Shown: positions 47,406-63,490 of the stretch, piece after piece
Position numbering within the stretch: position 1 is the first letter of the stretch
Layout of the letters: every line of letters starts with the position of its first letter
From: Maridesulfovibrio salexigens DSM 2638
GTDB lineage: Bacteria > Desulfobacterota > Desulfovibrionia > Desulfovibrionales > Desulfovibrionaceae
DNA length: 64,000 nt
Assembly: GCF_000023445.1 (NCBI RefSeq)
Contig: NC_012881.1
Span: 1,493,501-1,557,500, forward strand
Direction: 5' to 3'
Translations under genes and position numbers: made by a program
The notes under the pieces: model-generated
Told to the model about the DNA's origin: nothing
The model's database searches: none
The model's input: only the letters and a program-made list of their open reading frames with translations

Positions 47406-47741
47406 ATGACAACGGACTCCGGTTTTCTGGAGGATGAACAGCTTGAAGCTGAAAAGGTTCGTGAGGAACATCTTAGGATCAACGAACAGTTTCTTTCAGA
47501 TGTTCGGGCCACATTCAATACTTCGCACGGCAAGAGGGTGTTTACCTTTTTGTTGGAGCAGGGCGGGGTGAATGCGCTTTTGTTTTCCAAAGAGAGCGAT
47601 ATTTATCGCAACGTGGCCGTTCATGATTTTGTTGTTGAAAATGTACTTGGCCCGGTGATCAGTGCCGATGAGGAAATTTACCTTTCCATTATCCGCGAAC
47701 GGGCTGAACAAATGAGAAAAGAAGAGGAGGAACGAAAATGA
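47406..47741 (+). CDS. Phage head-module protein, Bbp19-like
   Basis: The 111-aa protein is helical and charged, with DVRATFNTSHGKRVFTFLLEQGGV, the pattern of Bbp19-type phage proteins (a short region where one residue block precedes a GRRVL/W-like helix). Members are encoded between portal and scaffold/capsid genes. AAGGAGG precedes the ATG. Its stop overlaps the next start (ATGATG). No portal or terminase gene lies upstream, so this is a remnant. Confidence 0.65.
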   Translation: MTTDSGFLEDEQLEAEKVREEHLRINEQFLSDVRATFNTSHGKRVFTFLLEQGGVNALLFSKESDIYRNVAVHDFVVENVLGPVISADEEIYLSIIRERAEQMRKEEEERK

Positions 47742-48376
47742 TGGATTTCCCGGTTAGTGATGATCCGCAGCCGGATCATTACTCTCCACAGGCAAAAATG
47801 AAAGACGATCTGCCGGAACCCGTACTTGGCGGTGATGCTTTTCTGGAAGATGAGTTTGCCGGAGAGCAGGATGGACCTGCTGTAGAGGAAGCCGAGCAGT
47901 TGTTGGATAATCCGGTTCCCAGTGCGCCGGAAGCGTATGAGCTCAATTATGGCATGCCGGACGGGATAGACCCCTATGTGGACCGTCAGTTCCGGCAGTT
48001 TGCTCACGAAAACGGGGTTAGCGGAGAAATGGCCCAGAAACTGGTGGATTTTCATAACTCGCTTGAATCGGCTCGTTATCAGGACCACCAGACTCAGGCT
48101 GGCGAGTGGGAGAGACAAACCCGTGCGCTTCCCGGCTGGCACGGAAACAATTACCGCAAGAATATGGGTGTAGCCAATAAGGCTTTGCAGGCTTTTGCTT
48201 CTCCGGTTCTTGCCAAGATGATCAGGGAATCCGGCTATTCCTGTCACCCTGAGGTTGTTAAAGCTTTTTACAATGTCGGCAGGCGTCTAACTGAAGATTC
48301 CTACGTGGATAGCAAAAGTAATACACCCCGTAAGAAGACAATCGGGGAAATTCTTTATCCCAACCAGCCGATTTAA
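47738..48376 (+). CDS. Phage head scaffolding-like protein
   Basis: The 212-aa protein is acidic and proline-rich in its first third and helical later, ending with ASPVLAKMIRESGYSCHPEVVKAFYNVGRRL and a basic tail. This C-terminal pattern is typical of capsid assembly scaffolds of P22/podovirus-like phages. It sits directly before the capsid gene, as expected. It overlaps the preceding gene by 4 bp. Confidence 0.7.
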   Translation: MMDFPVSDDPQPDHYSPQAKMKDDLPEPVLGGDAFLEDEFAGEQDGPAVEEAEQLLDNPVPSAPEAYELNYGMPDGIDPYVDRQFRQFAHENGVSGEMAQKLVDFHNSLESARYQDHQTQAGEWERQTRALPGWHGNNYRKNMGVANKALQAFASPVLAKMIRESGYSCHPEVVKAFYNVGRRLTEDSYVDSKSNTPRKKTIGEILYPNQPI

Positions 48377-48556: not shown

Positions 48557-49090
48557 ATGGCAACTCTTGGTATGAATGCACTTACCCTTTCCGATTGGAG
48601 TGGACGTCTTGATCCTAACGGTAAAGTTTCCGAGATCACGGAAGTTCTGGCCCACACCAACGAAATTCTCGATGACGCTGCATGGGTGGAAGGCAACCTG
48701 CCCACCGGACACCGTACCACCGTGCGTACCGACCTGCCCACTGTGAGCTGGCGTAAGCTTAACTATGGTATCAAACCCAGTAAGTCCCGCACCAAGCAGA
48801 TCGATGATACCTGTGGCATGCTTGAATCCTATGCGGAAATGGATAAAGCCCTTTCCGATCTTAACGGCCATTCTTCCAATTTCCGTACTTCTGAAGAGCG
48901 TGCTTTTCTTGAAGCCATGAATAAGGAATTTGCCGACACCTTTGTCTACGGTGATACCGCGCTTGAGCCTGAAAAATTCCTCGGCCTCGCACCGCGCTTC
49001 AATTCTCTTGAAGACAAGAATGTCATCGACTTCGGTGGAACCGGTAACAATTGCACTTCTATTTGGATTGTATGTTGGTGTTGTCTTTGA
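48557..49090 (+). pseudogene. Phage major capsid protein gene, truncated by insertion
   Basis: GAGGAG precedes the ATG. The first ~173 codons read as a podovirus/P22-like major capsid protein (LDDAAWVEGNLPTGHRTTVR, SWRKLNYGI, FNSLEDKNVIDFGGTGNNCT). After SIWIVCW, around base 49080, homology stops and three foreign codons reach a TGA; intact relatives continue with a Gly/Asp and a ~150-residue remainder. The break coincides with a sequence that is then repeated in tandem. The missing 3' part is not found in the window. Confidence 0.8.
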
Positions 49091-49154
49091 ATATCCTTTA
49101 AGTTCAGCATGTTATTGTTACATAGATTTTTCGCTTGTGTCCGGTATTGGGTCC
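49063..49154. repeat. Repeat unit R1 of an attachment-site-like array
   Basis: Core TTGGATTGTATGTTGGTG (49063-49080, still in the capsid reading frame) is followed by diverged sequence containing TTTAAGTTCA and the arm-like pair GTGTCC...GGGTCC at +74 and +86. It is the first of three units of 91-92 bp. Confidence 0.65.
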
Positions 49155-49238
49155 ATTTCGCCATACTGATTCAAATACTCAACTTCTCCATAAGATTCTG
49201 ATTTTACATTAAAAATCCTAGGACACATTTGCCCTCGT

Positions 49239-49330
49239 CTGGATCGTATGTTGGTGTTTATCTCTTAAGGGTTGTAAATTCAAAGGTTTATTGATCGCTG
49301 GTTGTGTCCTGTTGTGCGTCCAATGTGTCC
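49239..49330. repeat. Repeat unit R2 of the attachment-site-like array
   Basis: Core CTGGATCGTATGTTGGTG (49239-49256) matches R1 at 16 of 18 bases and keeps the capsid codons for VWIVCW. Arms follow: GTGTCC (+65), GCGTCC (+77), GTGTCC (+86). An inverted AGGACACAT precedes it at 49210-49218. Confidence 0.65.
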
Positions 49331-49383
49331 GGCTCTTAACATCTTGTATTTGTGGATAATTTTAAAGGACACATGATCCTAGG

Positions 49384-49474
49384 CTGGGTTGTTTGCTGGT
49401 GGTTGTTTGTGAAGGTTCATAAATTCAAGTGTTTACTGGGTGGAGCTGTGTCCGGGAGAGCGTCCAATGTGTCC
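49384..49474. repeat. Repeat unit R3 of the attachment-site-like array
   Basis: Core CTGGGTTGTTTGCTGGTG (49384-49401) is a more diverged copy. TAAATTCAA and the 16-bp GCGTCCAATGTGTCCG are identical to R2. An inverted AGGACACAT precedes it at 49367-49375. No gene lies between 49091 and 49505. Confidence 0.65.
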
Positions 49475-49505
49475 GTTCTACTTGGATGAATGTTTAGGTT
49501 TCAGA

Positions 49506-49955
49506 TTATGTTACTAAAATGATGGCTAATAAGCCGAAGAAATGAGTTATTCTTTGTGCCATGTTTTGAACCGGCCCTAATATATCTTGCCCTGATACCG
49601 ATCTTTCATGAATTGATGGTTTTGATTCGGCAACAGAAAATGCAAAGTTTGCTGACAGGGCTGATACGATCATTTTAAAGTCTAAATTATGATCAACAAA
49701 TATATTTATAAATAAGAAGATCAAGGCAAAGAATAATACACCTGCTGAAAATGTTAAACTGAACTTACTATGAATCTTTTCTAAGCTATCAACATAGAAC
49801 TCATTTCTTGTTAATTTAGGGAATTTTATTAAGGCAAACTCTTTTGCTTTCTCCCAAGGCCTAAAGAGTAATATTAAAGTTAAAATTAAGTGTCCAAGCC
49901 AGTCTTTCATTTCAATATTTGCGGCATCAATAGTGGATTCGTCTGATTTATTCAT
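49506..49955 (-). CDS. Small membrane protein of the endonuclease module
   Basis: The 149-aa protein has three hydrophobic segments (about 20-34, 65-90 and 132-149), separated by charged loops; I recognise no family. It starts 6 bp after the endonuclease I stop on the same strand, so the two are very likely one operon. It could be an immunity or anchoring partner (inference). The gene is AT-rich like its neighbour, unlike the backbone. Confidence 0.65.
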   Translation of the reverse strand: MNKSDESTIDAANIEMKDWLGHLILTLILLFRPWEKAKEFALIKFPKLTRNEFYVDSLEKIHSKFSLTFSAGVLFFALIFLFINIFVDHNLDFKMIVSALSANFAFSVAESKPSIHERSVSGQDILGPVQNMAQRITHFFGLLAIILVT

Positions 49956-49961
49956 AAGGTA

Positions 49962-50708
49962 TTACTCACAAACAACAAAAGGATTCACGTTACCCTGAAT
50001 CTTTTCAATCCTTTTAGCACGAACACATTCCCATTCAGATGTCGGGTACATCTTGTCCCAAGCATCCATTAACTTTCTTTGAGCTTTGTTCATCTTATAT
50101 CGTGGGTATGCCCATTCCATGTATTTATATGTTCGGGCTATCCTTCCACGTGAATTAACGGGAGGTTCAGCTTTCCTGTTATCAATCTTCATCGAACATG
50201 ATCCGAAGTCAGATTCTTCATCCGGTAACAACGTGAAGTTGTAGTTCTGTCTCATGGCGTTGACTGCACCAATAGCTGGGTAAAGATTGTAAAGATCACT
50301 TTGCATGTAGCGGTATTCAGTGTTTGTCTTTTCGGCACATTTGCGACCTTTAAAAGATTTTCCCCGTTTATCCACGCATCTGGCATCGCCTTCGCGCCAT
50401 TCAGTAAAGGTATGCCCGAAGTTTTCGGCAGGAACGACATGTTCCCATTCGATTTTTTTTGCTCGTTTTTGATATGTTGAAGTTGTGAATCCGGCTGGAG
50501 GTGTTACCAGTTTTTTACTGTCGAATTTTGCTCCACAATATATTGTTTCTCGATGATCGAAATATACCTGCTGTTCAAGTAGCTTTTTGGACTTGTTGAA
50601 TGATTGGATCAAGGTGTTGCCACGATGATTGTTTGAAGATCCAGCACAGCAGATGATCGGGATCAAAAGGAATATTAGTAAAGCTGAAATAAATGATTTT
50701 ATCTTCAT
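49962..50708 (-). CDS. Secreted endonuclease I family (HNH/beta-beta-alpha-metal) nuclease
   Basis: The 248-aa precursor has a signal peptide (about residues 1-22, LLIPIICCAG; a Cys pair could also be a lipobox-like site). The EndA/Vvn signature is present: IEWEHVVPAENFG with the catalytic His, and DLYNLYPAIGAVNAMRQNYNF with the metal-binding Asn. Family enzymes cut DNA in the periplasm or outside the cell, and disulfides are expected from the many Cys. In a defence island it may degrade incoming DNA during entry (inference). Confidence 0.9.
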   Translation of the reverse strand: MKIKSFISALLIFLLIPIICCAGSSNNHRGNTLIQSFNKSKKLLEQQVYFDHRETIYCGAKFDSKKLVTPPAGFTTSTYQKRAKKIEWEHVVPAENFGHTFTEWREGDARCVDKRGKSFKGRKCAEKTNTEYRYMQSDLYNLYPAIGAVNAMRQNYNFTLLPDEESDFGSCSMKIDNRKAEPPVNSRGRIARTYKYMEWAYPRYKMNKAQRKLMDAWDKMYPTSEWECVRAKRIEKIQGNVNPFVVCE

Positions 50709-50843
50709 ATTAATTTTTCACAACCTCCGGCGTGACAGGAGGGAGGCCGCCCGACGTGGCCAATGAATTCAATCGGTTAGTTCTTAATGATTGCTTGGGT
50801 CATGTCAGATGATGCTGAAATTTTACATGATGTTCCTGATCAT

Positions 50844-50870
50844 TTGTGTCCGGTTTGTGTCCTGTATTTT
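50844..50870. repeat. Isolated GTGTCC arm pair (R4) between endonuclease and Kiwa genes
   Basis: TTTGTGTCCGGTTTGTGTCCTG repeats the GTGTCC arm twice, 11 bp apart, closely like the arms of R1-R3, but no clear core is attached. It may mark the other boundary of the endonuclease module. The 220-bp interval 50709-50929 holds no gene. Confidence 0.5.
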
Positions 50871-50929
50871 GCCTACGTTGAAATTAATTTTGTTGAGGAT
50901 ATCCGGCTACCCGAAAATTAAGAAAATAG

Positions 50930-51844
50930 TTAAACTTGTTGGGTTGAGTTTGCATCATACATAAGTCCACTATTCATAGATGTAAGTCTACGGTCTCCTA
51001 GTGCGGTCAATAGTTCTGATATCTTATTTTCTTCTGGTTCGATCTTGTCTCCAACAAATTTAAAGTTAAATTTTAATTCTTTGTTGTTGGCTTTTAAATT
51101 CTTCATAAATTTTTCTTGAGCATAAAAACCTTTAGCTACAACCTCTGACAATCTTTTTAATCGCATACTGTTGTTTCCAACGTATTTTTTGATCTTTTCA
51201 CTACTTGTGAGAACACCAAGGTCTATAAGCTCAGTGTAGGCTGAATCTGCAACTTCTAGTAAGTTTTCTTTATAGTCAAATATCTGGGAATATGGATTAA
51301 AGTTAATTATGTACTCGATATTATCCATAACGATGACATCAAAGTTTTTGGTAACTCTAAATGAATGATCTTCCTCGAGTTGTTTTAAAGAACCTTCATT
51401 TATAAACATGCTTGCGTACGATGTATTTTTCGTCGACCATGTCGCACCGATCCATTTAAAGGCATGGATAAACCCTGATTTTATTTTGAATTTAACGCAG
51501 TAGTATTTAGTGTTTTGTAGGTCTTTTAAGTCTGAAATAGAGTTTTGTGCTATAGGAATATTTGTACTTTTAATACGCAAGCTTGCTTTTGATGTTGTGG
51601 ATTGAAACATACATTGCCCATCACCGGGTACGCACTCAACAGAATAATTTAAAGCTTCCCCTAATGATGAAACGCTTTCACTTAAGGCTTGATTAAAAAA
51701 ATTGGCTGGCGACTGCTTACCTTTTGTTTCCATGACAACAGGCTTTGCCCGATCTTGCCGTCCACCTGAGTATGATATTTTATATCTCCACAGAGAATGA
51801 GTGTCAGCATTTTCTACAGCGTCTTTTAGTGTTTCAAGGTGCAT
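50930..51844 (-). CDS. kwaB: Kiwa defence protein KwaB (DUF4868)
   Basis: The 304-aa protein matches DUF4868: an N-terminal region followed by TKNFDVIVMDNIEYIINFNPYSQIFDYKENL, the typical 'disease-response-like' strand/helix block, and a helical C terminus. Its partner, a four-helix membrane protein, is encoded immediately upstream with a one-base TAATG overlap, exactly the Kiwa gene pair. KwaB is the effector that works with the membrane sensor KwaA against phage. It is clearly AT-rich, as are neighbours. Confidence 0.78.
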   Translation of the reverse strand: MHLETLKDAVENADTHSLWRYKISYSGGRQDRAKPVVMETKGKQSPANFFNQALSESVSSLGEALNYSVECVPGDGQCMFQSTTSKASLRIKSTNIPIAQNSISDLKDLQNTKYYCVKFKIKSGFIHAFKWIGATWSTKNTSYASMFINEGSLKQLEEDHSFRVTKNFDVIVMDNIEYIINFNPYSQIFDYKENLLEVADSAYTELIDLGVLTSSEKIKKYVGNNSMRLKRLSEVVAKGFYAQEKFMKNLKANNKELKFNFKFVGDKIEPEENKISELLTALGDRRLTSMNSGLMYDANSTQQV

Positions 51845-52476
51845 TAATTATCCTTTTGGGTTATGAAAAGAATACCGGAAACATTAACCGCATAGGCTTT
51901 TTCATTTATCTCGATTTTATGCTTAGATAAAATGTTATCGGTAACGGTTATGCTGTTATCTTCGTAAGTTGCCTGCATGTATTTGTAGCCTAATATGATC
52001 ATCATAGGGTTGAAAAATATTGCCCCGCTTTTATAGGATATTGCAAACATTGTTGTCAAAAAAATTAACAAGCTGATTATTTCAAGTTTGTTCCCGATGT
52101 CTAATGAGAAGAAAGCTGCGATGTAAGGAACTGAGTAGTTGGCGATGTCAGTGGGGAGTGTTTTTGTTTGGTCGATTTTTATCTCTACCCCGGTACATCT
52201 TTCTATCTCATTTAAAATCCAGCATAATATTAGCAATGATACCGCTGGTGTGAATATAATGAAGCAAACTAAAAGAGGATTTTTTACAGGTAGCGAGAAT
52301 TCAAGTAGGTCAAAATTTCCCCAAAAGTTTGAGGATAAAAGTGAATATAGCTCATGCCAGCTTAATAGGCTTTGATACTTAGTAGAGTCAAAATTTTTAA
52401 CAACCAAGATTAACGCAAGTGGTAAGTATGAACTAATAAAAATAAAGACCGGGGCTAGATTTCTAAGTTTTGCCAT
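51844..52476 (-). CDS. kwaA: Kiwa defence protein KwaA (membrane sensor)
   Basis: The 210-aa protein has four transmembrane helices (about 8-27, 68-88, 115-130, 132-160), starting with FIFISSYLPLALILV and containing the FNPMMIILGYKYM segment after helix 4 seen in KwaA proteins, and a short cytoplasmic beta-rich end (ITVTDNILSKHKIEINEKAYAV). Size, topology and the coupled kwaB gene support the call. It lies 12 bp after the hsdR stop, so it may be read from the hsd transcript. Confidence 0.75.
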   Translation of the reverse strand: MAKLRNLAPVFIFISSYLPLALILVVKNFDSTKYQSLLSWHELYSLLSSNFWGNFDLLEFSLPVKNPLLVCFIIFTPAVSLLILCWILNEIERCTGVEIKIDQTKTLPTDIANYSVPYIAAFFSLDIGNKLEIISLLIFLTTMFAISYKSGAIFFNPMMIILGYKYMQATYEDNSITVTDNILSKHKIEINEKAYAVNVSGILFITQKDN

Positions 52477-52488
52477 GTTCTTCCTTAC

Positions 52489-54897
52489 CTACACCGCAAT
52501 ATACAATCGTTCCTGAAACCCGACAAAAACATTCCTGATCTCGGCGATGCTTCCGAGTACTGTTTTGGCATCTTGGACGGAGTTGTATTTAAGGTTCAGA
52601 AGTTCGGGCAACTTATCGTCATCGAGTTCGTTGATTCCTTCGGATACGTACTCTGCCAGCACGAAGGATAGGAACTCCTGTTGGTTGTTGCTGTATTCTT
52701 CGAAGATCAGGTCCTTGCGTTTATCTACTCTTTCTTCCCTGCTGATGGGAGCGAGGGCGAAGGCGATGTAGGCCAGAACATCATACAGGTCACTTTTCTC
52801 TGCATTGATGATCGTGCTTAAGTCGCGCAATTGTTCCTGCCCGTAGCCCTTTTCTTCAAGACCGGAGAGCAGTTTCTTTCTTGTGTCCGGTTTACCCCAG
52901 AGGTTGCGGAGTTCGTCTTCATCTTTGAACAGTTCGGGAAGATCACCATACATCTGCTTGATAAACTCTGCTGCCGACATGGGTTTGCCTTCGGTGGACC
53001 AGAAGGTTGTTGCCATCATATGTTGAATCTGGCGTGATTTACCGTCTGCAAGCTTGATTTTAAGCTTCGTTTTCTTTTCGCAAACACATGGATGTTCGCC
53101 GCACTTCGGGCATGGTTGAACTTTCTTTTCGCATACACAGGGAAGTTGACCGCAGATGGAGCATGGTTCAGGCGGTTTGATCTCACATGTGCAAGGATTA
53201 TTACCACATCTACTACATGGTTCAGGTTCTACTGGTTCACCGTCCCATTCGGGATCATTGAAATGTTCATAAGCTTTTACGAAGTCGTAGATGGTGAAAT
53301 AATCTTTGCCATCGAATAAACGTGTGCCTCGTCCAACGATCTGCTTGAATTCGATCATGGAATTGACCGGACGCAGCAGAACAATGTTACGCACGTTTCT
53401 GGCATCCACCCCGGTGGAAAGCTTTTGCGAAGTTGTGAGTATGGTCGGAATGGTCTTTTCGTTATCCTGAAATATTCTGAGCCATTTTTCACCTTCGGCA
53501 AGGTCTTGAGCAACTACACGGACGCAATAGTTAGGATCGGAACATGTTTTTTGCTGATTGATGATGTCGCGCAGGATTCCGGCATGGTGCTGGGTGGCAC
53601 CGAAAACAATGGTCTTCTGGGATTGATCAATATTATCCATGAAGATTTTAACACGATGTTCTTCGCGGGCTTTAATTTCGATAGACCTGTTGAATTCATT
53701 CTCGCCGTACCTTTTGCCTTCCTCAACTTCTCCTTGAATGATCTCATCATCGGAAGTGTAGACGTATTCATCAAGGGTAGTTGCTATCTGAACAACTTTG
53801 AACGGGGTCAGAAAGCCATCATTGATACCGTCTTTAAGTGAATATGTATAAACTGGATCACCGAAGTAACCGTAGGTGTCGGCATTGTTGGTGCGTCTGG
53901 GAGTTGCTGTTAGGCCAAGTTGCACTGCGGGCGCAAAGTATTCGAGGATGCCGCGCCATGTAGATTCATCTTTTGCTCCCCCACGGTGACACTCATCAAT
54001 AATGATGAAGTCGAAGAAATCAGGTGGATAGTCACCGAAGTTTGGTGCCGAGTTACCTTCTGCATCGATTCCGCTCATGAAGGTCTGGAATATGGTGAAG
54101 AAGATATTTCCGTTCTTGGGAACCATGCCCTTTTTACGAATAGCATCGGGGGATATGCGCACCAGTGCGTCTTCGGGGAATGCAGAGAATGAGTTGTAAG
54201 CCTGATCCGCCAGAATGTTACGGTCCGCAAGGAAGAGGATACGGGGGCGGCGTGTGATCTCTTCACCTTCACGCCATTCCTTGATGTTCCAGCGGCTGTG
54301 AAACAGCTTCCATGACAACTGAAATGCGATGAATGTCTTACCTGTTCCGGTGGCTAGAGTGAGCAGGATACGGTCTTTACCCGCTGCTATTGCTTCAAGT
54401 GCCTGATTGATGGCATTGTGCTGGTAATAGCGAGCTTCCCATGTGCCACCCTTGTCTTCGAATGGAACAGATGAGAAACGGTTACGCCACTCGTTTTCTT
54501 CGGCAAATGTTTCGTCCCAGAGTTCTTGGGGGGTGGGAAAAGCATCAACATGGGATTCGGCCCCTGTTTCCATGTCGATGCGGTAGACGGTGTGACCGTT
54601 GGTGGAATATGCGAATCTGGTCTTGAGCTTATCGGCGTAGCGTTTGGCCTGTTGCACACCTTCGGTATCGGATAAGGATTCACGTTTGGCCTCGATGACA
54701 GCAAGTTTCTGACCTTTGTAGACGAGAACGTAATCCGCAATATCCTGCTTTCCACGTCTGCCACCACCTATCAAACGACCATTGGTGATGACTTCACGTT
54801 TGACCCGGCTTTCATCAACTTTACCCCATCCACAGGAAGTAAGGGCCGGATCAATAAGTTCCGCACGAGTTTCAGCTTCATTCCGGTTGCTGTTCAT
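52489..54897 (-). CDS. hsdR: Type I restriction enzyme R subunit (HsdR) with triple cysteine-rich insert
   Basis: The 802-aa protein has the N-terminal PD-(D/E)XK nuclease (ADYVLVYKGQKLAVIEAKRE), a SF2 translocase with LATGTGKTF and DECH boxes, and a C-terminal region of the EcoEI type. At about 580-630 it contains three tandem PCX2CGX2PCXCE modules, probably zinc ribbons, not usual for HsdR. It cuts unmethylated DNA after ATP-driven translocation. It is the distal gene of the hsd operon, 231 bp after the embedded nuclease gene. Confidence 0.9.
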   Translation of the reverse strand: MNSNRNEAETRAELIDPALTSCGWGKVDESRVKREVITNGRLIGGGRRGKQDIADYVLVYKGQKLAVIEAKRESLSDTEGVQQAKRYADKLKTRFAYSTNGHTVYRIDMETGAESHVDAFPTPQELWDETFAEENEWRNRFSSVPFEDKGGTWEARYYQHNAINQALEAIAAGKDRILLTLATGTGKTFIAFQLSWKLFHSRWNIKEWREGEEITRRPRILFLADRNILADQAYNSFSAFPEDALVRISPDAIRKKGMVPKNGNIFFTIFQTFMSGIDAEGNSAPNFGDYPPDFFDFIIIDECHRGGAKDESTWRGILEYFAPAVQLGLTATPRRTNNADTYGYFGDPVYTYSLKDGINDGFLTPFKVVQIATTLDEYVYTSDDEIIQGEVEEGKRYGENEFNRSIEIKAREEHRVKIFMDNIDQSQKTIVFGATQHHAGILRDIINQQKTCSDPNYCVRVVAQDLAEGEKWLRIFQDNEKTIPTILTTSQKLSTGVDARNVRNIVLLRPVNSMIEFKQIVGRGTRLFDGKDYFTIYDFVKAYEHFNDPEWDGEPVEPEPCSRCGNNPCTCEIKPPEPCSICGQLPCVCEKKVQPCPKCGEHPCVCEKKTKLKIKLADGKSRQIQHMMATTFWSTEGKPMSAAEFIKQMYGDLPELFKDEDELRNLWGKPDTRKKLLSGLEEKGYGQEQLRDLSTIINAEKSDLYDVLAYIAFALAPISREERVDKRKDLIFEEYSNNQQEFLSFVLAEYVSEGINELDDDKLPELLNLKYNSVQDAKTVLGSIAEIRNVFVGFQERLYIAV

Positions 54898-55128
54898 ATA
54901 TCCACCTGAGGTTGAAAATCTATATTTGAGTCGTGTGCATCCTTTTAAAACGTAAAGCTGATATTTGCAAAATAAAAATAGAAATTAAGGTTAGAGTTGA
55001 AGAACTTAACTGCTCTGTTTCATAGGGGAAGGTTGCCGGAGAGTGGTGAAGTTGATTTGCGTTAAAGCACTATGGGGCCGCAGCTTTGAATTTTCATGAA
55101 GTTATCGGCAGGTCGGGTCGATGAATGG
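54898..55128. other. 231-bp gap between the embedded nuclease gene and hsdR
   Basis: No gene, hairpin with a T run or clear promoter was seen. The gap may let hsdR be expressed separately from hsdM-hsdS, as in delayed restriction. Confidence 0.4.
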
Positions 55129-55680
55129 TTATTGTTTGATTCTGGTTACTGACCATCCGTATGCTGCCGGGAGAGTTTTGATGTCACAGGCCATTCTTTT
55201 GTCACAACATACTGGCTTAAGCACAGATTTCATTCTTTGGTGCAGGTTCGCAATAAGATTACGACCGTTTCCCCGTGGATCATTGCAATGCTGACCAAGG
55301 TCAACAAATGAAACGAAACGTTTTTTTACTTCTGGATCAAGCAGCGCACGGTAGAAATGTTTTAGCTCGGTATCGCCACACATTTTTGCGCAGGTAAGCC
55401 CCGCCATAGTGTCGATAAATTTTTCAGATAAAACTCGTGGCAGGTCGCTCACAAGTTCTTTCATTTTTTCGGTTGTTGCCGTGTCGTAATCTTTGACTTC
55501 GATAATATACAGAATATTTTCGGGCTTGTTCAGAAGTAACAGGTCAACGCAGCGAACAGAATTAATCTTTTTCTGGATGTCTTTTCTGATCTTGCAGTCT
55601 TCGTATACCGAGTATTCCCAATCGTCAGGAAAGCTGAATTCAAGAGTTTTATCAACGATTACTTCCTTACTCATCGCCAT
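55129..55680 (-). CDS. PD-(D/E)XK-like nuclease partner of the AAA ATPase
   Basis: I start at the ATG at 55680 (MAMSKEVIVDKTLEF) or the next at 55674; an upstream frame extension runs inside the ATPase gene. The ~183-aa protein shows D46 in RCVDLLLL and E61-V-K63 in YIIEVKDY, the D...EXK pattern of the restriction-endonuclease fold. The C terminus is Cys/Lys-rich. It overlaps the ATPase gene by 14 bp, so the two must be coupled. I recognise no named family; nuclease activity is inferred from the motif. Confidence 0.7.
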   Translation of the reverse strand: MAMSKEVIVDKTLEFSFPDDWEYSVYEDCKIRKDIQKKINSVRCVDLLLLNKPENILYIIEVKDYDTATTEKMKELVSDLPRVLSEKFIDTMAGLTCAKMCGDTELKHFYRALLDPEVKKRFVSFVDLGQHCNDPRGNGRNLIANLHQRMKSVLKPVCCDKRMACDIKTLPAAYGWSVTRIKQ

Positions 55681-56731
55681 ACTCCAAAGAAAGATACCGA
55701 TCACTTTGCTCCAGTTCAGCTTCAAGCGACTGAATGTCGTCAATATCTTCAATGGAATCACCCTGACTTACTTTAACACCGTCCGATGTTTCTGAAAGTC
55801 CGAAGAAGCGCAGGTCCGTATCTTTCTGTCGGCTGAGGATGTCCAGTTCACGCATGAGGAATAAGCTATGCGTGGCAACAACAACCTGTATGCCGTAGTC
55901 GGCAAGGCTGGTCATGGCCTTTGCTACCAGTTTCAGCAGTTGCGGGTTCAGGTTACTTTCCGGTTCATCCCAGAAGAGTGTGCTGCCTTTAACCAGCGAA
56001 CCGTTGCGCAGCAGGTGGGCCAGCATACCGACCTTGCACAGACCTTCCGCAACCAGCGGGGCTTCCAGTTCACCTATGGATTCTTTTTCAAAGTAGAACT
56101 GGCTGTTCTTCTCGATGAATTTACCACCATTGAAGACATCTTTTTCAATAGTCAGGAGGATGTCTGAAATTTCTTCAAGTCTTTTGCCTTTAAGCGGTTT
56201 TCTCCCGAGAGCTTTGGCAAGGTCATAGTATGTGTGGTCAAACGATAGTTCCCGATCTTCAATTGCTTGAGCAAGGCCGGGGTAGATTGTGAGAATTTCT
56301 TTTGGCGGGATGTATATGGAGGCTTCAACCCGTACAGTCTGGGACGGTTGGTAATGGGATATGGGTGATCCTGTTTCCGAGTCGAATGAAAACTCTGACT
56401 TCGCAAAGTCATCTGGAAAATCGAAAAGAGTTCCCTCCAATTTAGTTTCATATATATTGCTGTCGGTGTTCTGTTTTCGTCCTAGATGGCTGAATCCCAT
56501 AACTTTAAAAGTATTCATAAGTTTTGAAAAGATCCAACCCCAACCTTTTGCTGTATAGCTTTCTCCTTCCAAACCCATCTGGTATTTTTCCTGACAGATT
56601 ACATACCCAGCCTTCAACAAATGACTCTTACCAACACCATTCCTACCGATGATGAAGTTGATACCTTTGGAGAAGTTCAGTTCAGCTTCCGAGAAAGCGG
56701 TGAAGTTGGTAAGCTTTAAATTTTTCAGCAT
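55667..56731 (-). CDS. AAA ATPase (SMC/OLD-like, AAA_21 type) embedded in the hsd operon
   Basis: The 354-aa protein begins MLKNLKLTNFTAF and has Walker A GRNGVGKS (29-36), an ABC-like helical insert, Walker B LFWDEPESNLNP and a His switch VVATHSLFLMREL. Such ATPases are the sensor half of two-gene defence modules (PARIS, Septu, Gabija-like). Here the partner is a PD-(D/E)XK-like protein with an overlapping gene, not TOPRIM or HNH. It lies between the HEPN-like gene and the nuclease gene. Confidence 0.88.
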   Translation of the reverse strand: MLKNLKLTNFTAFSEAELNFSKGINFIIGRNGVGKSHLLKAGYVICQEKYQMGLEGESYTAKGWGWIFSKLMNTFKVMGFSHLGRKQNTDSNIYETKLEGTLFDFPDDFAKSEFSFDSETGSPISHYQPSQTVRVEASIYIPPKEILTIYPGLAQAIEDRELSFDHTYYDLAKALGRKPLKGKRLEEISDILLTIEKDVFNGGKFIEKNSQFYFEKESIGELEAPLVAEGLCKVGMLAHLLRNGSLVKGSTLFWDEPESNLNPQLLKLVAKAMTSLADYGIQVVVATHSLFLMRELDILSRQKDTDLRFFGLSETSDGVKVSQGDSIEDIDDIQSLEAELEQSDRYLSLEYGDE

Positions 56732-56824
56732 AATATACTCCCGGTCATTCTTGAGGGCATCTTAAAGAAAAACAGTCCGTTTGATAAGGTAAACATCACA
56801 ACTCCCCAGCAATCGCCTATTAAT

Positions 56825-57733
56825 TCATTCCGATTCAAAAGTGACAACATCTTTTGCAATTAAATCTTCACGCAGCTGTTGTCCAAGTGGTGGCTGCATC
56901 TCATTTAAGAAAAGACAAATAAAATCTAACATTGTGTTCCAGTTAGCGAGAATTTGGGCATGAAAAACGACGATATGGCTACCTTCTTCATTATAGGAAT
57001 GAAGTGCCACAGGAGAAAAGGACATCAGGTTTGATTGCTCTAGCTCAATCGCGTGTATTCTCTTACGATGTTTGCTTAATTCTTTTAGCTTTTTTTGAAT
57101 ATCCTCGTGAAGGTATCGTCTACAATTGTCACGATTTTCCCAGAGGTTTTCCTTTTCTTTTTCAAGTTGTTGATAGGTTTCAAGTTTATTCGGGCTAAGT
57201 ACATTTTCAGGTATATACAGCGGTATTCTATGTGCCAAGGAATGACGAAAGTTGTTCAAATGCCTGCACCATGAAGACATTCCTTCGGTTGAGAAATATT
57301 TTCGAAGTGGTTCAGGAAGAATCTTTTTAATTTTGGAATTTACTTTCTTGCTTAAAAATGAAGCTTGTCTTTTTTCGCTTTCCGAAATTTCGATTCCTGA
57401 CATCTCTATACTAACACGGGCGAGGTTTTCGAATGCTCCGTACATATGGATGTAAAACGATTGTAGATAGATAGTAATATCAAGAGCTATGTCTGGATCA
57501 TCCAATTTACGTGTGTCCGGTGGGCATAGTTCGTAAATACGTTCTATACATCGACGCATCATAACTAGTCTTCTCAAAACACCGTGCGTAATATATTCAC
57601 GAGCATTTTCTTCTGCTTCAAGGTGAACCACAAGATAATCAGCAACAATGGCCCATGATGGCATTACCCCACTAAAACTTTTGTTTAACTTCGCTAGATC
57701 CTCATCTGAATAGAATTGGGAATCAGCCATCAC
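56825..57733 (-). CDS. HEPN-like helical protein with RX4H motif, embedded in the hsd operon
   Basis: The 302-aa protein is almost all helical. NNFRHSLAHRIPLY contains R-X4-H, the catalytic signature of HEPN ribonucleases, preceded by long helices (YLQSFYIHMYGAFENLARVSIEMSG) as in Cthe_2314/abortive-infection-type HEPN proteins. Its start overlaps the hsdS stop by 4 bp (ATGA), so it is translated with the specificity subunit. It may be an RNase toxin released when restriction fails (inference); the RNase call rests on the motif. Confidence 0.65.
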   Translation of the reverse strand: MMADSQFYSDEDLAKLNKSFSGVMPSWAIVADYLVVHLEAEENAREYITHGVLRRLVMMRRCIERIYELCPPDTRKLDDPDIALDITIYLQSFYIHMYGAFENLARVSIEMSGIEISESEKRQASFLSKKVNSKIKKILPEPLRKYFSTEGMSSWCRHLNNFRHSLAHRIPLYIPENVLSPNKLETYQQLEKEKENLWENRDNCRRYLHEDIQKKLKELSKHRKRIHAIELEQSNLMSFSPVALHSYNEEGSHIVVFHAQILANWNTMLDFICLFLNEMQPPLGQQLREDLIAKDVVTFESE

Positions 57734-58896
57734 AACTCCCCGGCAAACGCCTTTTGCAGGATCGATTGTTTCAGGTCTTGGAGGTTGGTTAGTTTTTGTT
57801 GGTATAGCTGTGTCATCTTGAGATAATTCTGTTTGGCCTCAGATACTTTCCCGACTATGTCTTTCTGTTCTTTTAAAGATGGTAACCTAACGGGTAATTT
57901 TTTGATAATTCCCATATTCAAACCAGACATGATTGCGCCTTTCGCCTTAGACGTTAGGAAGCTAATGGCTGTAGGGTGATAAAGAAAGTACGCATGAAGA
58001 TATTCAGGAAGGCAGATGTCATGATCCAAGGTTATACAACATAAATGCTTAGTATTGATTGCTAATGGGATGTCATCAGGAATGACAGCACATCTTCCAC
58101 AAGTTCCCATAATAGTGATTATGACATCTCCGGGATGTACGGTATACCTTGATAGTTGTTCATATTTTTCATCAGTGATGAAGCGATGTTTACCCCATGA
58201 AAATTCATTCTTCACTGCATTATCAATCCCAAGAACTGCGATCCCCTCATCTACAAATTCTTTATGAAGAAGTTGGCTTCCGAAAGGTCCGGTTCTCATT
58301 GATCCTTTTTCTTTTACAGCAAGGTCCGCCACCAGCTTTGATTCCCATTGTTGGGCATCAGGGTCAACAAAAATACTGTCCGCGACAAGCCTTTCAAACA
58401 ACTCCCGAGCATTGGCAAGGTTCTTCTCGGTGTTGGCGATAGCTTTATCAATGGACGCAAAAGCTTTGTCGAGGATGCCGACTATTCGTTTTTGTTCTGA
58501 ACTATCAGAAGGAATTAATATCGACTCAGAATGAACGTTGTTCCTGTTTAATGTCGGAACTCCTGCGCCACTGGCAAATCGCTTCAGGTCGATATGTTTC
58601 AAAAGATAAAAAATAAACCGGGGGTCATTTCCGAAATAATTTTTAACATAGAGAGTTGTATTTAAGGGCCAGAAATCGTCCTCAATATAAAATAATGAAC
58701 CTATGCTGCCGCTTCGTCCTGTGACAACTCCGGGACCAGCGACTTTTGGTTCATTATGGGAATCAATACAACCACTAGAGCTTATCAGAGGATGTTCTCC
58801 TTTTACTCTGAGTCTTTTAGGTAAATCGAACCCTCTTTGAAGAGTGCAGGATTCACCTAGTGTTTTTTTATCCCATCCTTTCGGCAAAACCATCAC
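57730..58896 (-). CDS. hsdS: Type I restriction-modification specificity subunit (HsdS)
   Basis: The 388-aa protein shows the two-half architecture: target recognition domain 1 (about 5-130, LPKGWDKKTLGESCTLQRGFD), central conserved helix (SEQKRIVGILDKAFASIDKAIANTEKNL), domain 2 (about 185-335) and a distal conserved helix (LKEQKDIVGKVSEAKQNYLKM). It sets the recognised bipartite DNA sequence, which cannot be read from the protein. It overlaps hsdM by 4 bp. Confidence 0.93.
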   Translation of the reverse strand: MMVLPKGWDKKTLGESCTLQRGFDLPKRLRVKGEHPLISSSGCIDSHNEPKVAGPGVVTGRSGSIGSLFYIEDDFWPLNTTLYVKNYFGNDPRFIFYLLKHIDLKRFASGAGVPTLNRNNVHSESILIPSDSSEQKRIVGILDKAFASIDKAIANTEKNLANARELFERLVADSIFVDPDAQQWESKLVADLAVKEKGSMRTGPFGSQLLHKEFVDEGIAVLGIDNAVKNEFSWGKHRFITDEKYEQLSRYTVHPGDVIITIMGTCGRCAVIPDDIPLAINTKHLCCITLDHDICLPEYLHAYFLYHPTAISFLTSKAKGAIMSGLNMGIIKKLPVRLPSLKEQKDIVGKVSEAKQNYLKMTQLYQQKLTNLQDLKQSILQKAFAGEL

Positions 58897-60362
58897 AACA
58901 TCCCCCGCACAACACCCAAAACATCAGCAGTTTCCTTATCAAGCTCCACCATCTCGGCAAGTATCTCTTCGGGACTACGCAGGGGGGCTTCTTCGGGTGC
59001 ATTGGGATTCTTCACGGAAAGGTCGAAACTCTCCTGATCAACATCCTTGAAATCAACTACCCATGACTTTTCCGATTCCTGCTGATCTTTCTGAAGTTCG
59101 ATGAATTCTTTCAGATCATCGTCATTAAGCGGATTGGTCTTGCCGAGACTTCTGCCGGGATCAAGCTGGTAATACCATGTTTTACGGGTAGCTGCTCCTT
59201 TCTCAAAGAACAGCACAACGGTTTTAACTCCCGCACCGAGGAAGGTTCCACCGGGGCAATCGAGGACAGTGTGCAGGTTGCAGCTTTCCAGCAGTTCCTT
59301 TCTTAGCGACTTGGAAGCATTGTCGGAGTTGGACAGGAAGGTGTTCTTGATCACAACCGCCGCCCGGCCTCCGGCTTTGAGGTACTTGATGAAATGTTGC
59401 AGGAACAGGAAAGCGGTTTCCCCGGTCTTGATGGGGAAGTTCTGCTGTATCTCCTTGCGTTCCTTGCCGCCGAAAGGAGGGTTGGCGAGGATGATGTCGT
59501 AGCGGTCCTTTTCCTGAACATCGGCGAGGTTGTCGGCAAGGGTGTTGGTATGCAGGATGTTCGGGGTATCAATGCCATGCAGGATCATATTCATGATGGC
59601 GATGACGTAAGCCAGACTTTTCTTTTCCTTGCCGTAGAAGGTGGAAGTTTGTAGCGATCTGAGCTGATCAACGCTGAGTTTGGCTTCCTTGCCGTCACTG
59701 CCGTAGCGCAGATGATCGTAGCTTTCACAGAGGAACCCTGCGGAACCGCAAGCACCGTCATAAATAGTTTCACCGATGGTCGGGGAGGCAACCTTGATCA
59801 TAGCCCGGATAAGAGGTCTGGGGGTGTAGTATTCACCTCCGTTGCGTCCGGCATTGCCCATGTTCTTGATCTTGGTTTCGTACAGATGGGAAAGCTCGTG
59901 CTTCTCCTTCTGGGACTTGAACTGCAACTTATCCATGAGTTCAAGAGCGTCACGCAGGGAATAGCCGGACTGAAATTTGTTTTTAATCTCCCCGAATATC
60001 TCACCGATCTTGTATTCAATGGTGTCGGCAGATGAGGCACGCTGCTTGAATCCTTTCAGGTAGGGGAAAAGCTCTTCATCAACATAGGTGATAAGGTCGT
60101 CACCTGTGAGTGCGCTGTCATGGTCAAAACTACCGTCTGCGTTCTTCGGTGCCGCCCAGCTGGACCAGCGATGTTCTGCATCAATGATGAACTCGTAGTC
60201 GTTACCGCGCAGTTCTTCATCCTCAGCCCGGGCTGCTTCAAGATCATCAAGATACTTGAGGAAGAGCATCCACGAGGTCTGTTCGGTGTAGTCCAGTTCG
60301 GAGGAGCATCCAGCTTCCTTCCAGAGAACGTCATCTATATTCTTAAAAGTCTGCTCAAACAT
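58893..60362 (-). CDS. hsdM: Type I restriction-modification methyltransferase (HsdM)
   Basis: I start at the ATG at 60362 (MFEQTFKNIDDVLWKEAG) with AAGGA upstream, giving 489 aa; an upstream extension lacks family homology. N-terminal HsdM helical domain, then the SAM-binding segment TIGETIYDGACGSAGFLCES and the catalytic NPPFGG motif (DIILANPPFGGKE) of N6-adenine methyltransferases are present. It modifies host DNA and, with HsdS and HsdR, forms the restriction complex. First gene of the operon. Confidence 0.94.
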   Translation of the reverse strand: MFEQTFKNIDDVLWKEAGCSSELDYTEQTSWMLFLKYLDDLEAARAEDEELRGNDYEFIIDAEHRWSSWAAPKNADGSFDHDSALTGDDLITYVDEELFPYLKGFKQRASSADTIEYKIGEIFGEIKNKFQSGYSLRDALELMDKLQFKSQKEKHELSHLYETKIKNMGNAGRNGGEYYTPRPLIRAMIKVASPTIGETIYDGACGSAGFLCESYDHLRYGSDGKEAKLSVDQLRSLQTSTFYGKEKKSLAYVIAIMNMILHGIDTPNILHTNTLADNLADVQEKDRYDIILANPPFGGKERKEIQQNFPIKTGETAFLFLQHFIKYLKAGGRAAVVIKNTFLSNSDNASKSLRKELLESCNLHTVLDCPGGTFLGAGVKTVVLFFEKGAATRKTWYYQLDPGRSLGKTNPLNDDDLKEFIELQKDQQESEKSWVVDFKDVDQESFDLSVKNPNAPEEAPLRSPEEILAEMVELDKETADVLGVVRGML

Positions 60363-60751
60363 TGAAAATCCTTTATTTTGATCCTGCTTATAACAGGCAG
60401 ATGCCAGTGTCCATGTTGCCGGACCGGAAACACCCAAGTTCGGCGCAACTAGCGTGATGATCAGATACAGGATTCATTCATGGTCCGCAACGGCTTGGAG
60501 AAGCTACGGTGATGTGGGATGAAGCTGATTTTAAAGTAATATTTTGCTGAAATTATGGGATATTTTGGGGAGTTTGCGGGGTTGGAATCAAATATTAAGC
60601 GCGTATTTGGGCCGGAATGGCTGTTTTTACGCGATTTTCTTGGGAAAATGATGGTTGGGCAATGTTTGCTGTCCAATTATGTGGAGAGGGGATTTTTGTT
60701 GAGTGGTGATTTTAAAAATATTGCAATTGTTTTATAACGTATTTCAATGGT

Positions 60752-60827
60752 CAAGTATATGCCAAAAAAAGCTTCAAAAGTCTACTATTTCTTGCGTACA
60801 TAGAAATATGTTGGCGTTATATACTTG
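60752..60827. repeat. Spaced inverted repeat CAAGTATAT-GCCAA
   Basis: CAAGTATATGCCAA (60752-60765) and TTGGCGTTATATACTTG (60811-60827) are inverted copies differing by a 3-base insertion, 45 bp apart, upstream of the 91-aa gene. It could be a regulator-binding or recombination site. Confidence 0.4.
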
Positions 60828-60875
60828 TATTAATGTAAAATAAAAATTTGAGTCAGTTTTTTATGATGTGTGTGG

Positions 60876-60903
60876 TTGACATGAAGTGTGTAGGTGTTAA
60901 ATA
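60876..60903 (+). promoter_or_regulatory. Sigma-70-type promoter of the 91-aa/256-aa operon
   Basis: TTGACA (60876-60881), a 16-bp spacer and TAAATA (60898-60903) lie 85 bp before the start at 60988. Confidence 0.5.
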
Positions 60904-60987
60904 GATCGAAATCTCAAAAATGAAGGATATTGCTATGGAATATTACATTAGGATTTAAAAACAAAACACTTTAAAAAGGAAATGTAT

Positions 60988-61263
60988 ATGTTCAAATTAT
61001 CAAACAAACCATTAATTAACAATTCAATTGGATTGAAAAGCATTCAAGATGTTCGAAGCAACTTTGATCAATGTTGCATCGGGCATTGCGATCATGACTT
61101 AATCTCTGGTGGAGATGCGAGAGCTCCGGGAAAGTTCGTAGAACTTATCCAGACCATTTTGAAAGTTCGCAAGCATTGTCAGGTAAAGCCAAGGTTTGAG
61201 GCGTTGCTAAATGTTTGTGCCGGACAGAATGTCGATAATCGTATCAATCACATAACAATATAG
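60988..61263 (+). CDS. Hypothetical protein, 91 aa
   Basis: The ATG at 60988 has AAGGA at good distance; an ATG two codons earlier is too close. The protein contains a Cys/His group (QCCIGHCDHD) that could bind metal and a C-terminal helix rich in Lys/Val. I recognise no family. It is followed after 12 bp by the 256-aa gene, so they form an operon. Confidence 0.55.
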   Translation: MFKLSNKPLINNSIGLKSIQDVRSNFDQCCIGHCDHDLISGGDARAPGKFVELIQTILKVRKHCQVKPRFEALLNVCAGQNVDNRINHITI

Positions 61264-61275
61264 GAGATTAAGAAT

Positions 61276-62046
61276 ATGACAAATTTCAAGAAAAATGACC
61301 AAGTAGAAAACAATGGCAATGCTCAAGTAAACTCTGGAGCTGTTGAACCCCAGTCCGGTGCGCAGGATGGTGGTGGTCAACCTACTTCCGGCTCTGGTAC
61401 TAATTCCCAGCCAGGTAAGGGCGAAGGTCAGGACAACCCTGAACCAACTGTTAAGTCTCCAACCGAGAAGTTGACTGAATTTTTAAAGGATAAGCATCTC
61501 GGCACAGAAATACACGTTTCTGATATTGTTGGAGCTTGTGGGTGCAAGGATGATGAATGTGTTGATGTTATCCGCGATCTTAATATGCAGCTACGCAAGA
61601 AGTTCCAGTTTCTTGGCGAAGATGGGAAGCTCCTGATTAAAAGAAGATCATTTTCGGAAAAGGAAGAACCTAAAGCTATTGAGATGTTGAAGTCTCTTTT
61701 TGAAGAAGCGAAAAGTTCTGAAAGCAACTCCGTCAAACTTAAAGATATTTGTGAGCTTCTTCAATGTGATCCGGGTGCTGGCGAAGCTATCTTTTATAAA
61801 TCTTGTTATGCACTTAAAGTGTTCGTTGAGCTTGATAAAGTCACGGGGTATGAGGATAAAACTAAATCCGATAATGCCAAGTTTCATGATAGAGGGTGGA
61901 GTCTTGGTAAGAAGGCCTCTGATGACAGTATGGACCGAGCAGGTGTCCCTTTAGAACATCGACCTGAAGTAGGTGCTAATTACTATCACGAGGTTGATCC
62001 AAAAGAAGAAGTCATAAAAATTTATTATCGGAGAAAAATTGCATAG
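61276..62046 (+). CDS. Hypothetical protein with disordered N terminus and two helix-turn-helix-like blocks
   Basis: The 256-aa protein starts with ~60 residues of Gly/Gln/Asn/Ser-rich, probably disordered sequence. Two similar compact blocks follow: EIHVSDIVGACGCKDDECVDVIRDLNMQL (about 78-106) and SVKLKDICELLQCDPGAGEAIFYKSCYAL (about 152-180), each with a winged-helix-like pattern. No family is recognised; DNA binding is a guess. TAGGAG precedes the ATG; a terminator follows. Confidence 0.6.
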   Translation: MTNFKKNDQVENNGNAQVNSGAVEPQSGAQDGGGQPTSGSGTNSQPGKGEGQDNPEPTVKSPTEKLTEFLKDKHLGTEIHVSDIVGACGCKDDECVDVIRDLNMQLRKKFQFLGEDGKLLIKRRSFSEKEEPKAIEMLKSLFEEAKSSESNSVKLKDICELLQCDPGAGEAIFYKSCYALKVFVELDKVTGYEDKTKSDNAKFHDRGWSLGKKASDDSMDRAGVPLEHRPEVGANYYHEVDPKEEVIKIYYRRKIA

Positions 62047-62078
62047 TTTCTGATCCGGTAAAAATGTTATCCAGACTT

Positions 62079-62116
62079 AGCCGAGGTTCCGAACTTTATC
62101 GGGGCCTCGGCTTTTA
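62079..62116 (+). terminator. Terminator after the 256-aa gene
   Basis: An 8-bp stem (AGCCGAGG / CCTCGGCT) extended by weaker inner pairs is followed by TTTT. Confidence 0.75.
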
Positions 62117-62249
62117 CTTTGTCTTGTATATCCATCTTCCAAAATGTTGGATTGAACTTTCCAGAAGATGCCGGAACCTTCGTGACCAGATAAATTGAAA
62201 GAGGATAATCTTCTAAGTTGATTGAAAATATTAACTTGAAAGGAGATTC

Positions 62250-62639
62250 ATGATGAATAGTGATGGTTTCGAATTGATCTACAGTTATACCCGGAAGCAA
62301 GCGATTGAAGATGGTGTTCTTATCGATGTTACCGAACAGGCCAAGGAAGTTGGCTTCAAAGTTCCTACGGCAGTTTCTGACCGTCTTTACCATGAGTATG
62401 TGGTTCCATCGAAAGAAATGGAAAATTCAGGGCAATCAGTTGAAGGTCGTCTGCATGATCTGTTGCATCTAGCTGCATTGTGCGCCCGAAGTCGGTGGGA
62501 TGGTAGCCGGGTTTATTTCGATGTTATGTTCCAGATGGAAGAAGGACCGAAGTTTGAAGAAGTTCATGTTGTCGCAATCATCGGTGCGGGTGACGATGGC
62601 AATCCTGTCATGACCATATGTAGACCTGAGGATGAATAA
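62250..62639 (+). CDS. DUF6573 family protein
   Basis: The 129-aa protein follows the DUF6573 pattern: a YTRKQAIEDGVLIDVTEQAKEVGFK opening, a GRLHDLLHLAALCARS helix and a final beta-rich VVAIIGAGDDGNPVMTICRPEDE. This family is common on plasmids and integrative elements; function unknown. AAAGGAG precedes the ATG pair at 62250/62253. It is a sign of a mobile element at this edge. Confidence 0.82.
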   Translation: MMNSDGFELIYSYTRKQAIEDGVLIDVTEQAKEVGFKVPTAVSDRLYHEYVVPSKEMENSGQSVEGRLHDLLHLAALCARSRWDGSRVYFDVMFQMEEGPKFEEVHVVAIIGAGDDGNPVMTICRPEDE

Positions 62640-62651
62640 GGATCGTACTGA

Positions 62652-62692
62652 TCAAAAAAAGACCACTTCGTGATGAGGTGGTCTTTTTGATT
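62652..62692. terminator. Bidirectional terminator between DUF6573 and XRE genes
   Basis: ATCAAAAAAAGACCAC and GGTGGTCTTTTTGAT pair around an A/T-containing loop; both strands end in a T run, serving the two convergent genes. Confidence 0.88.
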
Positions 62693-62701
62693 TGAAGCGT
62701 A

Positions 62702-63025
62702 TTATTTTAGTATTTCGGAGACTAGCTTGTGCAGGAAAACGATTTGTTCATCGCTGGTTTTCTGGATCATCCATAGCAGGTCTTTTTCAAGTTCTTCTCG
62801 TGTCGGTTGGGCAGTATCGAAGTCCAGAATATCTTTGACTGGAACTTTCAAACCATTGGCAATCTTGTTCAGAGCATCCACAGTTAGTTTCGATGATCCA
62901 CGTTCTATTTCACTGATATATTTGTCGTTCAGGTCGGATTCGTTGCCGAGCTGGGCCTGCGTGAGACCTCGCTTTTTTCTGATTGATCTGATCTTATTGC
63001 CAACTAATTTCGAAATTTCAGCCAT
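62702..63025 (-). CDS. XRE family transcriptional regulator
   Basis: The 107-aa protein has a Cro/CI-type helix-turn-helix at about residues 10-65 (IRSIRKKRGLTQAQLGNESDLNDKYISEIERG, KLTVDALNKIANGLKVPV) and a short C-terminal helix. It is divergent from the small zinc-ribbon genes and probably represses them and itself. Repeats of ATTCTTG at 63081-63120 in the shared promoter region are candidate sites. Confidence 0.88.
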   Translation of the reverse strand: MAEISKLVGNKIRSIRKKRGLTQAQLGNESDLNDKYISEIERGSSKLTVDALNKIANGLKVPVKDILDFDTAQPTREELEKDLLWMIQKTSDEQIVFLHKLVSEILK

Positions 63026-63080
63026 ATACGACTCCTTGAGCAGTATAGTGGCGGTCCTTGTGGTTTATATAAACATGCTG

Positions 63081-63461: not shown

Positions 63462-63490
63462 ATTCATAAGTTTCGGTAAGGTTTTTTGAA

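Follow-up and report, generated by a model that had tools for sequence, protein, structure and literature searches.

Gene transfer agents (GTAs) are tamed viruses that bacteria use for DNA sharing. They are thought to benefit the host population, and the matching conflict with selfish elements has mostly been modelled for competence. The closest described elements to the one reported here are the HE-PICIs, which occupy 14 sites in nine late genes of lambdoid prophages, most commonly the capsid gene, and whose type case (11capE of E. coli NRG857c) excises upon induction (PMC10111431). Tandem accretion arrays and cis-mobilizable elements have been described in the ssrA islands of Dehalococcoides (PMC3146451). 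Among GTAs, the nearest relevant system is Dd1 of Desulfovibrio desulfuricans ATCC 27774, the Ddes_0703-0720 island (PMC5701242, PMC6854486).

We analysed a stretch of 64,000 nucleotides of the Maridesulfovibrio salexigens DSM 2638 genome (the window, genome bases 1493501-1557500), in which a major capsid gene is interrupted. Our main reading, with a probability of roughly 0.85, is that an island with a tRNA-type tyrosine integrase has inserted site-specifically into a GTA-like capsid gene, with an accretion array at its attachment sites and the effects on particle formation predicted below. At the level of sequence the insertion is demonstrated by the cores, the arm sites, both junctions, the intact frame of the empty site, the integrase, the cargo and a sister island. 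A literature search found no earlier report of an element inside a GTA gene.

The locus resembles HE-PICIs in being a tyrosine-integrase island within a late gene, here the major capsid gene that HE-PICIs use most often, with a short identity block, repeated arm motifs and an integrase oriented with the late gene, which would be restored upon excision. The original prediction regarded an element in a capsid gene as new in kind, which it is not, because HE-PICIs already integrate there (PMC10111431). However, the 11capE integrase shares just 21% identity with that of the island over 131 aa, with a long branch in the tree. The doubled TGTATTGC att motif present at the 11capE integrase is absent from the island, which has GTGTCC triplets. 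HE-PICIs are 11 kb long and carry primase, AlpA and capsid genes, whereas the capsid island is 25 kb long and carries defence genes, and the host of the former is a lambdoid helper prophage rather than a GP7-type capsid gene among scattered GTA-like genes. Since integrase clade, att motif and host type are all unlike, membership of the HE-PICIs was rejected.

The split capsid gene and the inserted island

The frame at 48557-49090 matches positions 1-161 of 313 of the GP7 major capsid profile (PF20911, E=7e-70, profile search), and its PHROG match is major head protein. The frame terminates as ...CTSIWIVCW-CCL-stop, three codons past WIVCW, as expected from the original prediction of a capsid frame that is normal up to SIWIVCW and then stops. 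Downstream there is no simple deletion. The 3' half of the gene lies on the same strand and in register, with 25 kb between the halves, and when the flanks are fused at their common TGG they yield an uninterrupted 322-aa capsid protein that is 94% identical to that of a congener (G140). The insertion point is codons 170-174 (WIVCW). Features of the locus are collected in Table 1.

Table 1. Features of the capsid locus, the island and related sites (window positions unless marked as genome or contig)
Feature	Position	Strand	Evidence or remark
GTA-like head-block gene, phrog_528-like, 111 aa	47406..47741	+	PHROG 8e-9; orthologue in 17/17 genus genomes
Scaffold/protease gene, phrog_458	47738..48376	+	PHROG 1e-30
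Interrupted major capsid gene, 5' part, codons 1-174, GTA-like, GP7 family	48557..49078	+	PF20911 1-161/313
Island portion inside window	49064..64000	+	runs on to attR at genome 1567515
R1 core, attL; capsid flank left, element flank right	49064..49081	+	shares TGGATTGT with attR
R1 arm sites, GTGTCC and degenerate GGGTCC	49137..49153	+	motif search
Inverted arm-type hexamer GGACAC ahead of R2	49221..49226	-	
R2 core, attP-like, CCTCGTC followed by TGGATCGTATGTTGGTGTT	49240..49257	+	match to predicted attP
R2 arm triplet GTGTCC/GCGTCC/GTGTCC	49304..49330	+	
Inverted GGACAC ahead of R3	49367..49372	-	
R3 core, diverged, attP-like	49385..49402	+	
R3 arm triplet GTGTCC/GCGTCC/GTGTCC	49448..49474	+	
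149-aa cargo protein, no function assigned	49506..49955	-	no Pfam match
Endonuclease I family nuclease, cargo	49962..50708	-	PF04231 4e-28
Core-less GTGTCC arm pair, between endonuclease I and KwaB	50846..50862	+	resembles attR arm, p<=0.001
KwaB (Kiwa defence)	50930..51844	-	PF16162 3e-52; PADLOC KwaB
KwaA (Kiwa defence)	51844..52476	-	PADLOC KwaA 3e-55
HsdR, Type I restriction	52489..54897	-	profile match including PADLOC
AAA ATPase, HEC-02 candidate defence family	55667..56731	-	PADLOC HEC-02B 1e-90
HsdS specificity subunit	57730..58896	-	PADLOC search
HsdM methyltransferase	58893..60362	-	profile match including PADLOC
DUF6573 backbone gene, 53% to that of sister island	62250..62639	+	profile match
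XRE/Cro-CI regulator	62702..63025	-	profile match
584-aa P-loop-containing ATPase-like island protein	genome 1560217-1561971		
Tyrosine integrase	genome 1564775-1566091	as capsid gene	PF00589, 1e-27
Capsid 3' half, PF20911 profile positions 156-312	genome 1567512-1567967	as 5' half	profile match
attR, fourth core	genome 1567515		at right junction with capsid 3' half
Sister island, 22,156 bp, from 45-bp tRNA-Asp fragment to tRNA-Asp	G105:C9:48941-71097		

The gene is split in one of the 17 genomes of the genus and intact in 16 related species, and no relative has a capsid that stops at this point. No further split capsid was found in the 17 genus genomes, and 149 family genomes gave only apparent contig breaks. 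On the branch leading to this genome the capsid has 2 nonsynonymous and 12 synonymous private changes, without gaps or stops, and it resembles intact orthologues. Because the split gene is undecayed in both halves, the insertion would be either recent or reversible, the gene in the latter case often being restored under selection.

The insert between the outer cores measures 24,951 bp, with a G+C content of 0.41 as against 0.45-0.46 in the flanks, and the integrase ends 1.4 kb ahead of its right end. The locus has the features of a genomic island, namely an integrase, attL and attR sharing a core, arm sites and an empty site in relatives. The original prediction had placed a capsid 3' half, a last copy of the core and an integrase to the right of the array, and all three are there. 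It had also proposed defence cargo, which is represented by Kiwa, Type I restriction and a HEC-02-like ATPase. The segment between hsdR and hsdS (55129-56731) encodes this ATPase together with a downstream NERD/HinfI-like protein with weak matches. The remaining cargo includes a serine resolvase, HTH regulators and several proteins without assignment. The 584-aa P-loop protein, a possible replication ATPase, has no match in Pfam, PHROG, NCBIfam or PDB sequences.

No excisionase gene was identified in the island, and no packaging, capsid or terminase genes were recognised there. Neither AlpA nor primase was found among the island proteins scanned, which cover the small frames in part, and the same set contains no relaxase or conjugation genes of the kind that would mark an ICE or IME. 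We found no support for the suggestion that the element is a satellite or acts against phages through its insertion.

The integrase belongs to a family associated with tRNA genes. Of its homologues in the Desulfovibrionaceae, 20 were examined (31-45% identity), and most lie near such a gene, chiefly tRNA-Glu. At E<=1e-70 a search of 395 genomes of the phylum returned the integrase itself and one other, and viral contigs held no relative. Its sister is an integrase in a member of the same genus (G105; branch support 100/99), where the island carries a GTGTCC pair just within each end; no other such pairs occur in 58 kb of the contig, and 147 kb of background sequence lacks them altogether. Both islands have GTGTCC arms, a common backbone (DUF6573, at 53%, and proteins of 149 and 309 aa) and Type I restriction. 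The sister island differs in its target, tRNA-Asp, in having one att copy per end and in its arm spacings. It also encodes a second small tyrosine recombinase of 202 aa.

Because the sister integrase's tRNA-Asp element has GTGTCC repeats at both ends, we take these repeats to be integrase arm sites. The capsid site is best explained by a switch to a new target in which the arm motif was retained. In the mechanism that we propose, the 24,951-bp island, whose integrase family normally acts at tRNA genes, would have recombined into the WIVCW codons of the capsid gene. These codons, being conserved, single-copy and non-essential, would act as a safe harbour replacing the tRNA gene.

Attachment cores, arm sites and the tandem array

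The window contains exactly three occurrences of the core pattern TGGRTYGTNTGYTGGTG (R1, R2 and R3), within a base or two of the positions originally predicted, and there are none in 100 dinucleotide shuffles. Over the 18-bp core R1 agrees with R2 at 17 positions, with R3 at 14 and with attR at 15. W-(I/V)-V-C-W can be read from every copy, in keeping with the proposal that the core mimics conserved capsid codons. Most differences between the copies fall at third positions of codons, the pattern also seen among the capsid genes of the genus, which suggests that the cores derive from such genes.

R1 and attR have in common the identity block TGGATTGT. To the left of this block is capsid sequence at R1 and CCTCGTC at attR, and to its right is ATGTTGGTGTT at R1 and capsid sequence at attR. 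The attR junction thus reads CCTCGTC-TGGATTGTGTGCTGG-TCTGATCAG, the core followed by capsid codons. Joining the left side of attR to the right side of R1 gives the predicted attP, CCTCGTCTGGATTGTATGTTGGTGTT, to which R2 is identical at 25 of 26 positions. Because of this fit, R2, and less well R3, can be regarded as attP-like internal sites. The exact crossover point is not fixed, since the core copies differ.

With the core excluded, the arm stretches of R2 and R3 are clearly homologous (p<=0.0005; score of 48 against a null maximum of 27), whereas that of R1 gives a weaker signal (p about 0.02-0.035). At R2 and R3, GTGTCC occurs at +63/64 and +84/85 with GCGTCC in between, and R1 has one exact and one degenerate copy. 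The conserved stretches and GTGTCC-type hexamers that were predicted after each core are therefore clear at R2 and R3 and attenuated at R1. The predicted inverted GGACAC hexamers do precede R2 and R3. At attR there are three GTGTCC copies at -128, -117 and -106, an exact 11-bp spacing; this triplet in 11-bp steps was not seen in 200 shuffles and occurs once among the 17 genus genomes. With attL, attR, arm repeats and an integrase near attR, the sites are those of a tyrosine recombinase, as had been proposed. The degenerate arms of R1 may make excision at this site inefficient.

An accretion array is expected to have attP-like sites inside the attL-attR interval, as seen here. R1-R2-R3 is accordingly read, as in the original prediction, as a tandem accretion array that would consist of attL, two attP-like sites, the full island and attR. 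The first two accreted units would formerly have been whole elements, of which deletion has left 176 and 145 bp. The core-less arm pair may be the worn end of another accreted unit. The locus shares with the Dehalococcoides ssrA arrays multiple att copies in direct repeat and integrase-less units flanked by att sites; it differs in the very short units and in a target that is a protein-coding capsid gene. Comparison of the R2-R3 DNA with 247 family genomes gave only chance matches of 16-42 bp, so that a second array, with or without capsid genes, is absent from them. An Rfam scan in and around the array produced no match.

An accidental insertion without function, into a dispensable gene whose att site was off-target or had newly arisen, has in our estimation a little less than an even chance of being the whole explanation. 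Only one of the 17 species carries the insertion, integrase targets drift over time, and a neutral account covers every sequence feature. It fits less easily with R2 and R3, which already bear capsid-like cores with mostly wobble differences and so suggest more than one round at such sites.

The R copies have diverged far beyond the level of change in the capsid halves, and because of this excess they were probably distinct before they met here. The same divergence bears on a slippage-type local tandem duplication of the left end of the island, which would generate R1-R3 without accreted units. Duplication would explain the like order of core, arms and GGACAC in the units, as well as the GGACAC flank that is common to R2 and R3 and missing at attR. 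However, given the undecayed capsid halves, the differences in arms and cores are too large for copying after insertion, and the left flank of R2 is the CCTCGTC of attR, as expected of an internal attP-like site. We therefore consider duplication unlikely.

Predicted effects of the insertion

While the island is present, the full capsid protein, and hence a GTA particle, would not form. Recombination of R1 with attR would remove the island and rebuild the capsid gene exactly, whereas the gene would stay broken if excision used R3. A tentative extension, which we hold to be somewhat improbable, is that the integrase has evolved specificity for GTA capsid codons, in which case carriers would automatically be GTA non-producers, or producers only after excision. 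The original prediction went further and envisaged a family of elements inserting into capsid genes; we observed one insertion event in one species.

The insertion might reflect an intragenomic conflict, in which the island would profit by silencing the GTA production of its carrier and escaping GTA lysis. DNA-transfer genes are repeatedly inactivated by elements (PMC4774983), and Rocha proposed that the curing model might extend to GTAs (PMC4795794). The shift of target from a tRNA to a GTA gene and the defence cargo are in line with this. The parallel with competence-gene-disrupting elements, which have been discussed as a chromosomal-curing conflict (PMC4774983), lies in the breaking of host gene-exchange machinery by insertion. 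However, this is a single case, and adaptation and accident are inseparable in a single event. In addition, loss of the capsid would halt GTA donation rather than reception or DNA uptake, and would therefore leave the carrier unprotected from curing by incoming GTA DNA. Such an advantage to the island seems to us doubtful.

Somewhat less likely again is that the island is a regulated element embedded in the GTA, which excises on GTA induction, permits capsid synthesis only then, and is possibly packaged itself. This alternative concerns the effect only and is compatible with our reading of the structure as an integrase-driven insertion. Exact restoration by R1 x attR excision would suit it, as would the common orientation of integrase and capsid gene and the behaviour of HE-PICIs in lambdoid prophages (PMC10111431). 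On this branch, moreover, constraint is relaxed neither in the split gene nor in the other GTA genes, although recency accounts equally well for an undecayed gene. Against it, none of the packaging, capsid, terminase, AlpA or primase genes was recognised in the island, and the integrase is unrelated to the HE-PICI clade.

The GTA-like target and its significance

The original prediction spoke of a phage head gene. The interrupted gene instead appears to belong to a scattered set. Block A, containing the scaffold gene, the capsid gene and phrog_427, is followed by host-type genes for a universal stress protein, a small membrane protein and a histidine kinase. Block B contains tail and internal virion genes, with bioF and its neighbours next. 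A further group of genes, 1.04 Mb away, comprises TerL, portal, GTA_holin_3TM (PF11351, 9e-29; next to terminase and portal) and a TerS-like frame slightly longer than 90 codons. This second GTA-like locus (genome 2572001-2592000; L099:7998-13881) also encodes a GNAT protein and is flanked by TetR/HlyD/ABC transporter genes. Because the same transporter-associated genes flank the capsid block in genome G048 (L040), the arrangement suggests an ancestral single cluster that was later split into capsid and TerL/portal loci.

The definition of a GTA calls for particles that package random host DNA, and less than their own genes, and deliver it to other cells; it also includes two genomic criteria: fixation in host genomes, often in several loci, and vertical inheritance with co-diversification (PMC9662315). 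Regarding the first, the structural blocks are divided by host genes and lie up to 1.04 Mb apart. Each of the 17 genus members has one copy of the capsid gene and one of the portal gene, and in three congeners the capsid block has the same host-gene neighbours. Regarding the second, dN/dS relative to G140 is 0.02-0.06 for most structural genes and 0.10 for the small phrog_528 gene, with rpoB at 0.021, and protein distances track those of rpoB (Mantel r 0.86-0.95, p<=0.0005). Topology is partly conflicting: the MCP and portal trees agree with rpoB in 9-10 of 14 splits and part of the conflicts are supported. These conflicts might stem from exchange within the genus.

From these genes we infer that the target is a lineage-wide, scattered and vertically inherited GTA-like structural gene set that would form particles. 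Such phage structural genes in several loci are a feature of GTAs, Dd1 especially, as are the GTA-type holin and a short terminase-small-like frame ahead of TerL; the Maridesulfovibrio genes make up a candidate system of this kind. An ordinary or decaying prophage is an improbable target even though the capsid belongs to the family found in Epsilon15-like phages, with relatives in phage-like viral contigs as well as enterobacterial genomes. Against a prophage, capsid and portal are present as single copies in 17 of 17 genomes, host neighbours are shared, the structural blocks are interrupted by host genes and lie as much as 1 Mb apart, and the genes show strong purifying selection and correlation with rpoB.

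In a separate genus of the family (g40; L049, L055, L335-L339), capsid, portal and TerL genes are grouped with an XRE-type repressor in a single conserved cluster, some 15 kb long, in 7 of 7 genomes compared. This is possibly a candidate Dd1-type GTA locus.

The interest of the locus lies more in its target than in any novelty of mechanism. The novel part, as judged from the DNA, would be the retargeting of a tRNA-type, defence-carrying island to a GTA-like capsid gene. The tRNA-Asp sister comparison shows how an integrase family can switch its target yet keep its arm motif. If the integrase does target capsid codons, it would represent the first site-specific conflict seen between mobile elements and GTAs, a parallel to the disruption of competence genes by insertion. 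A GTA-like capsid gene occupied by a defence island whose integrase has been retargeted offers a natural case in a probably culturable type strain, with the gene intact in 16 related species. Finally, no description of a GTA in Maridesulfovibrio was found in a literature search, and the genes point to an apparently undescribed, scattered GTA candidate throughout a genus of marine sulfate-reducing bacteria that falls in the same family as the classical and genetically little-studied Dd1 GTA.
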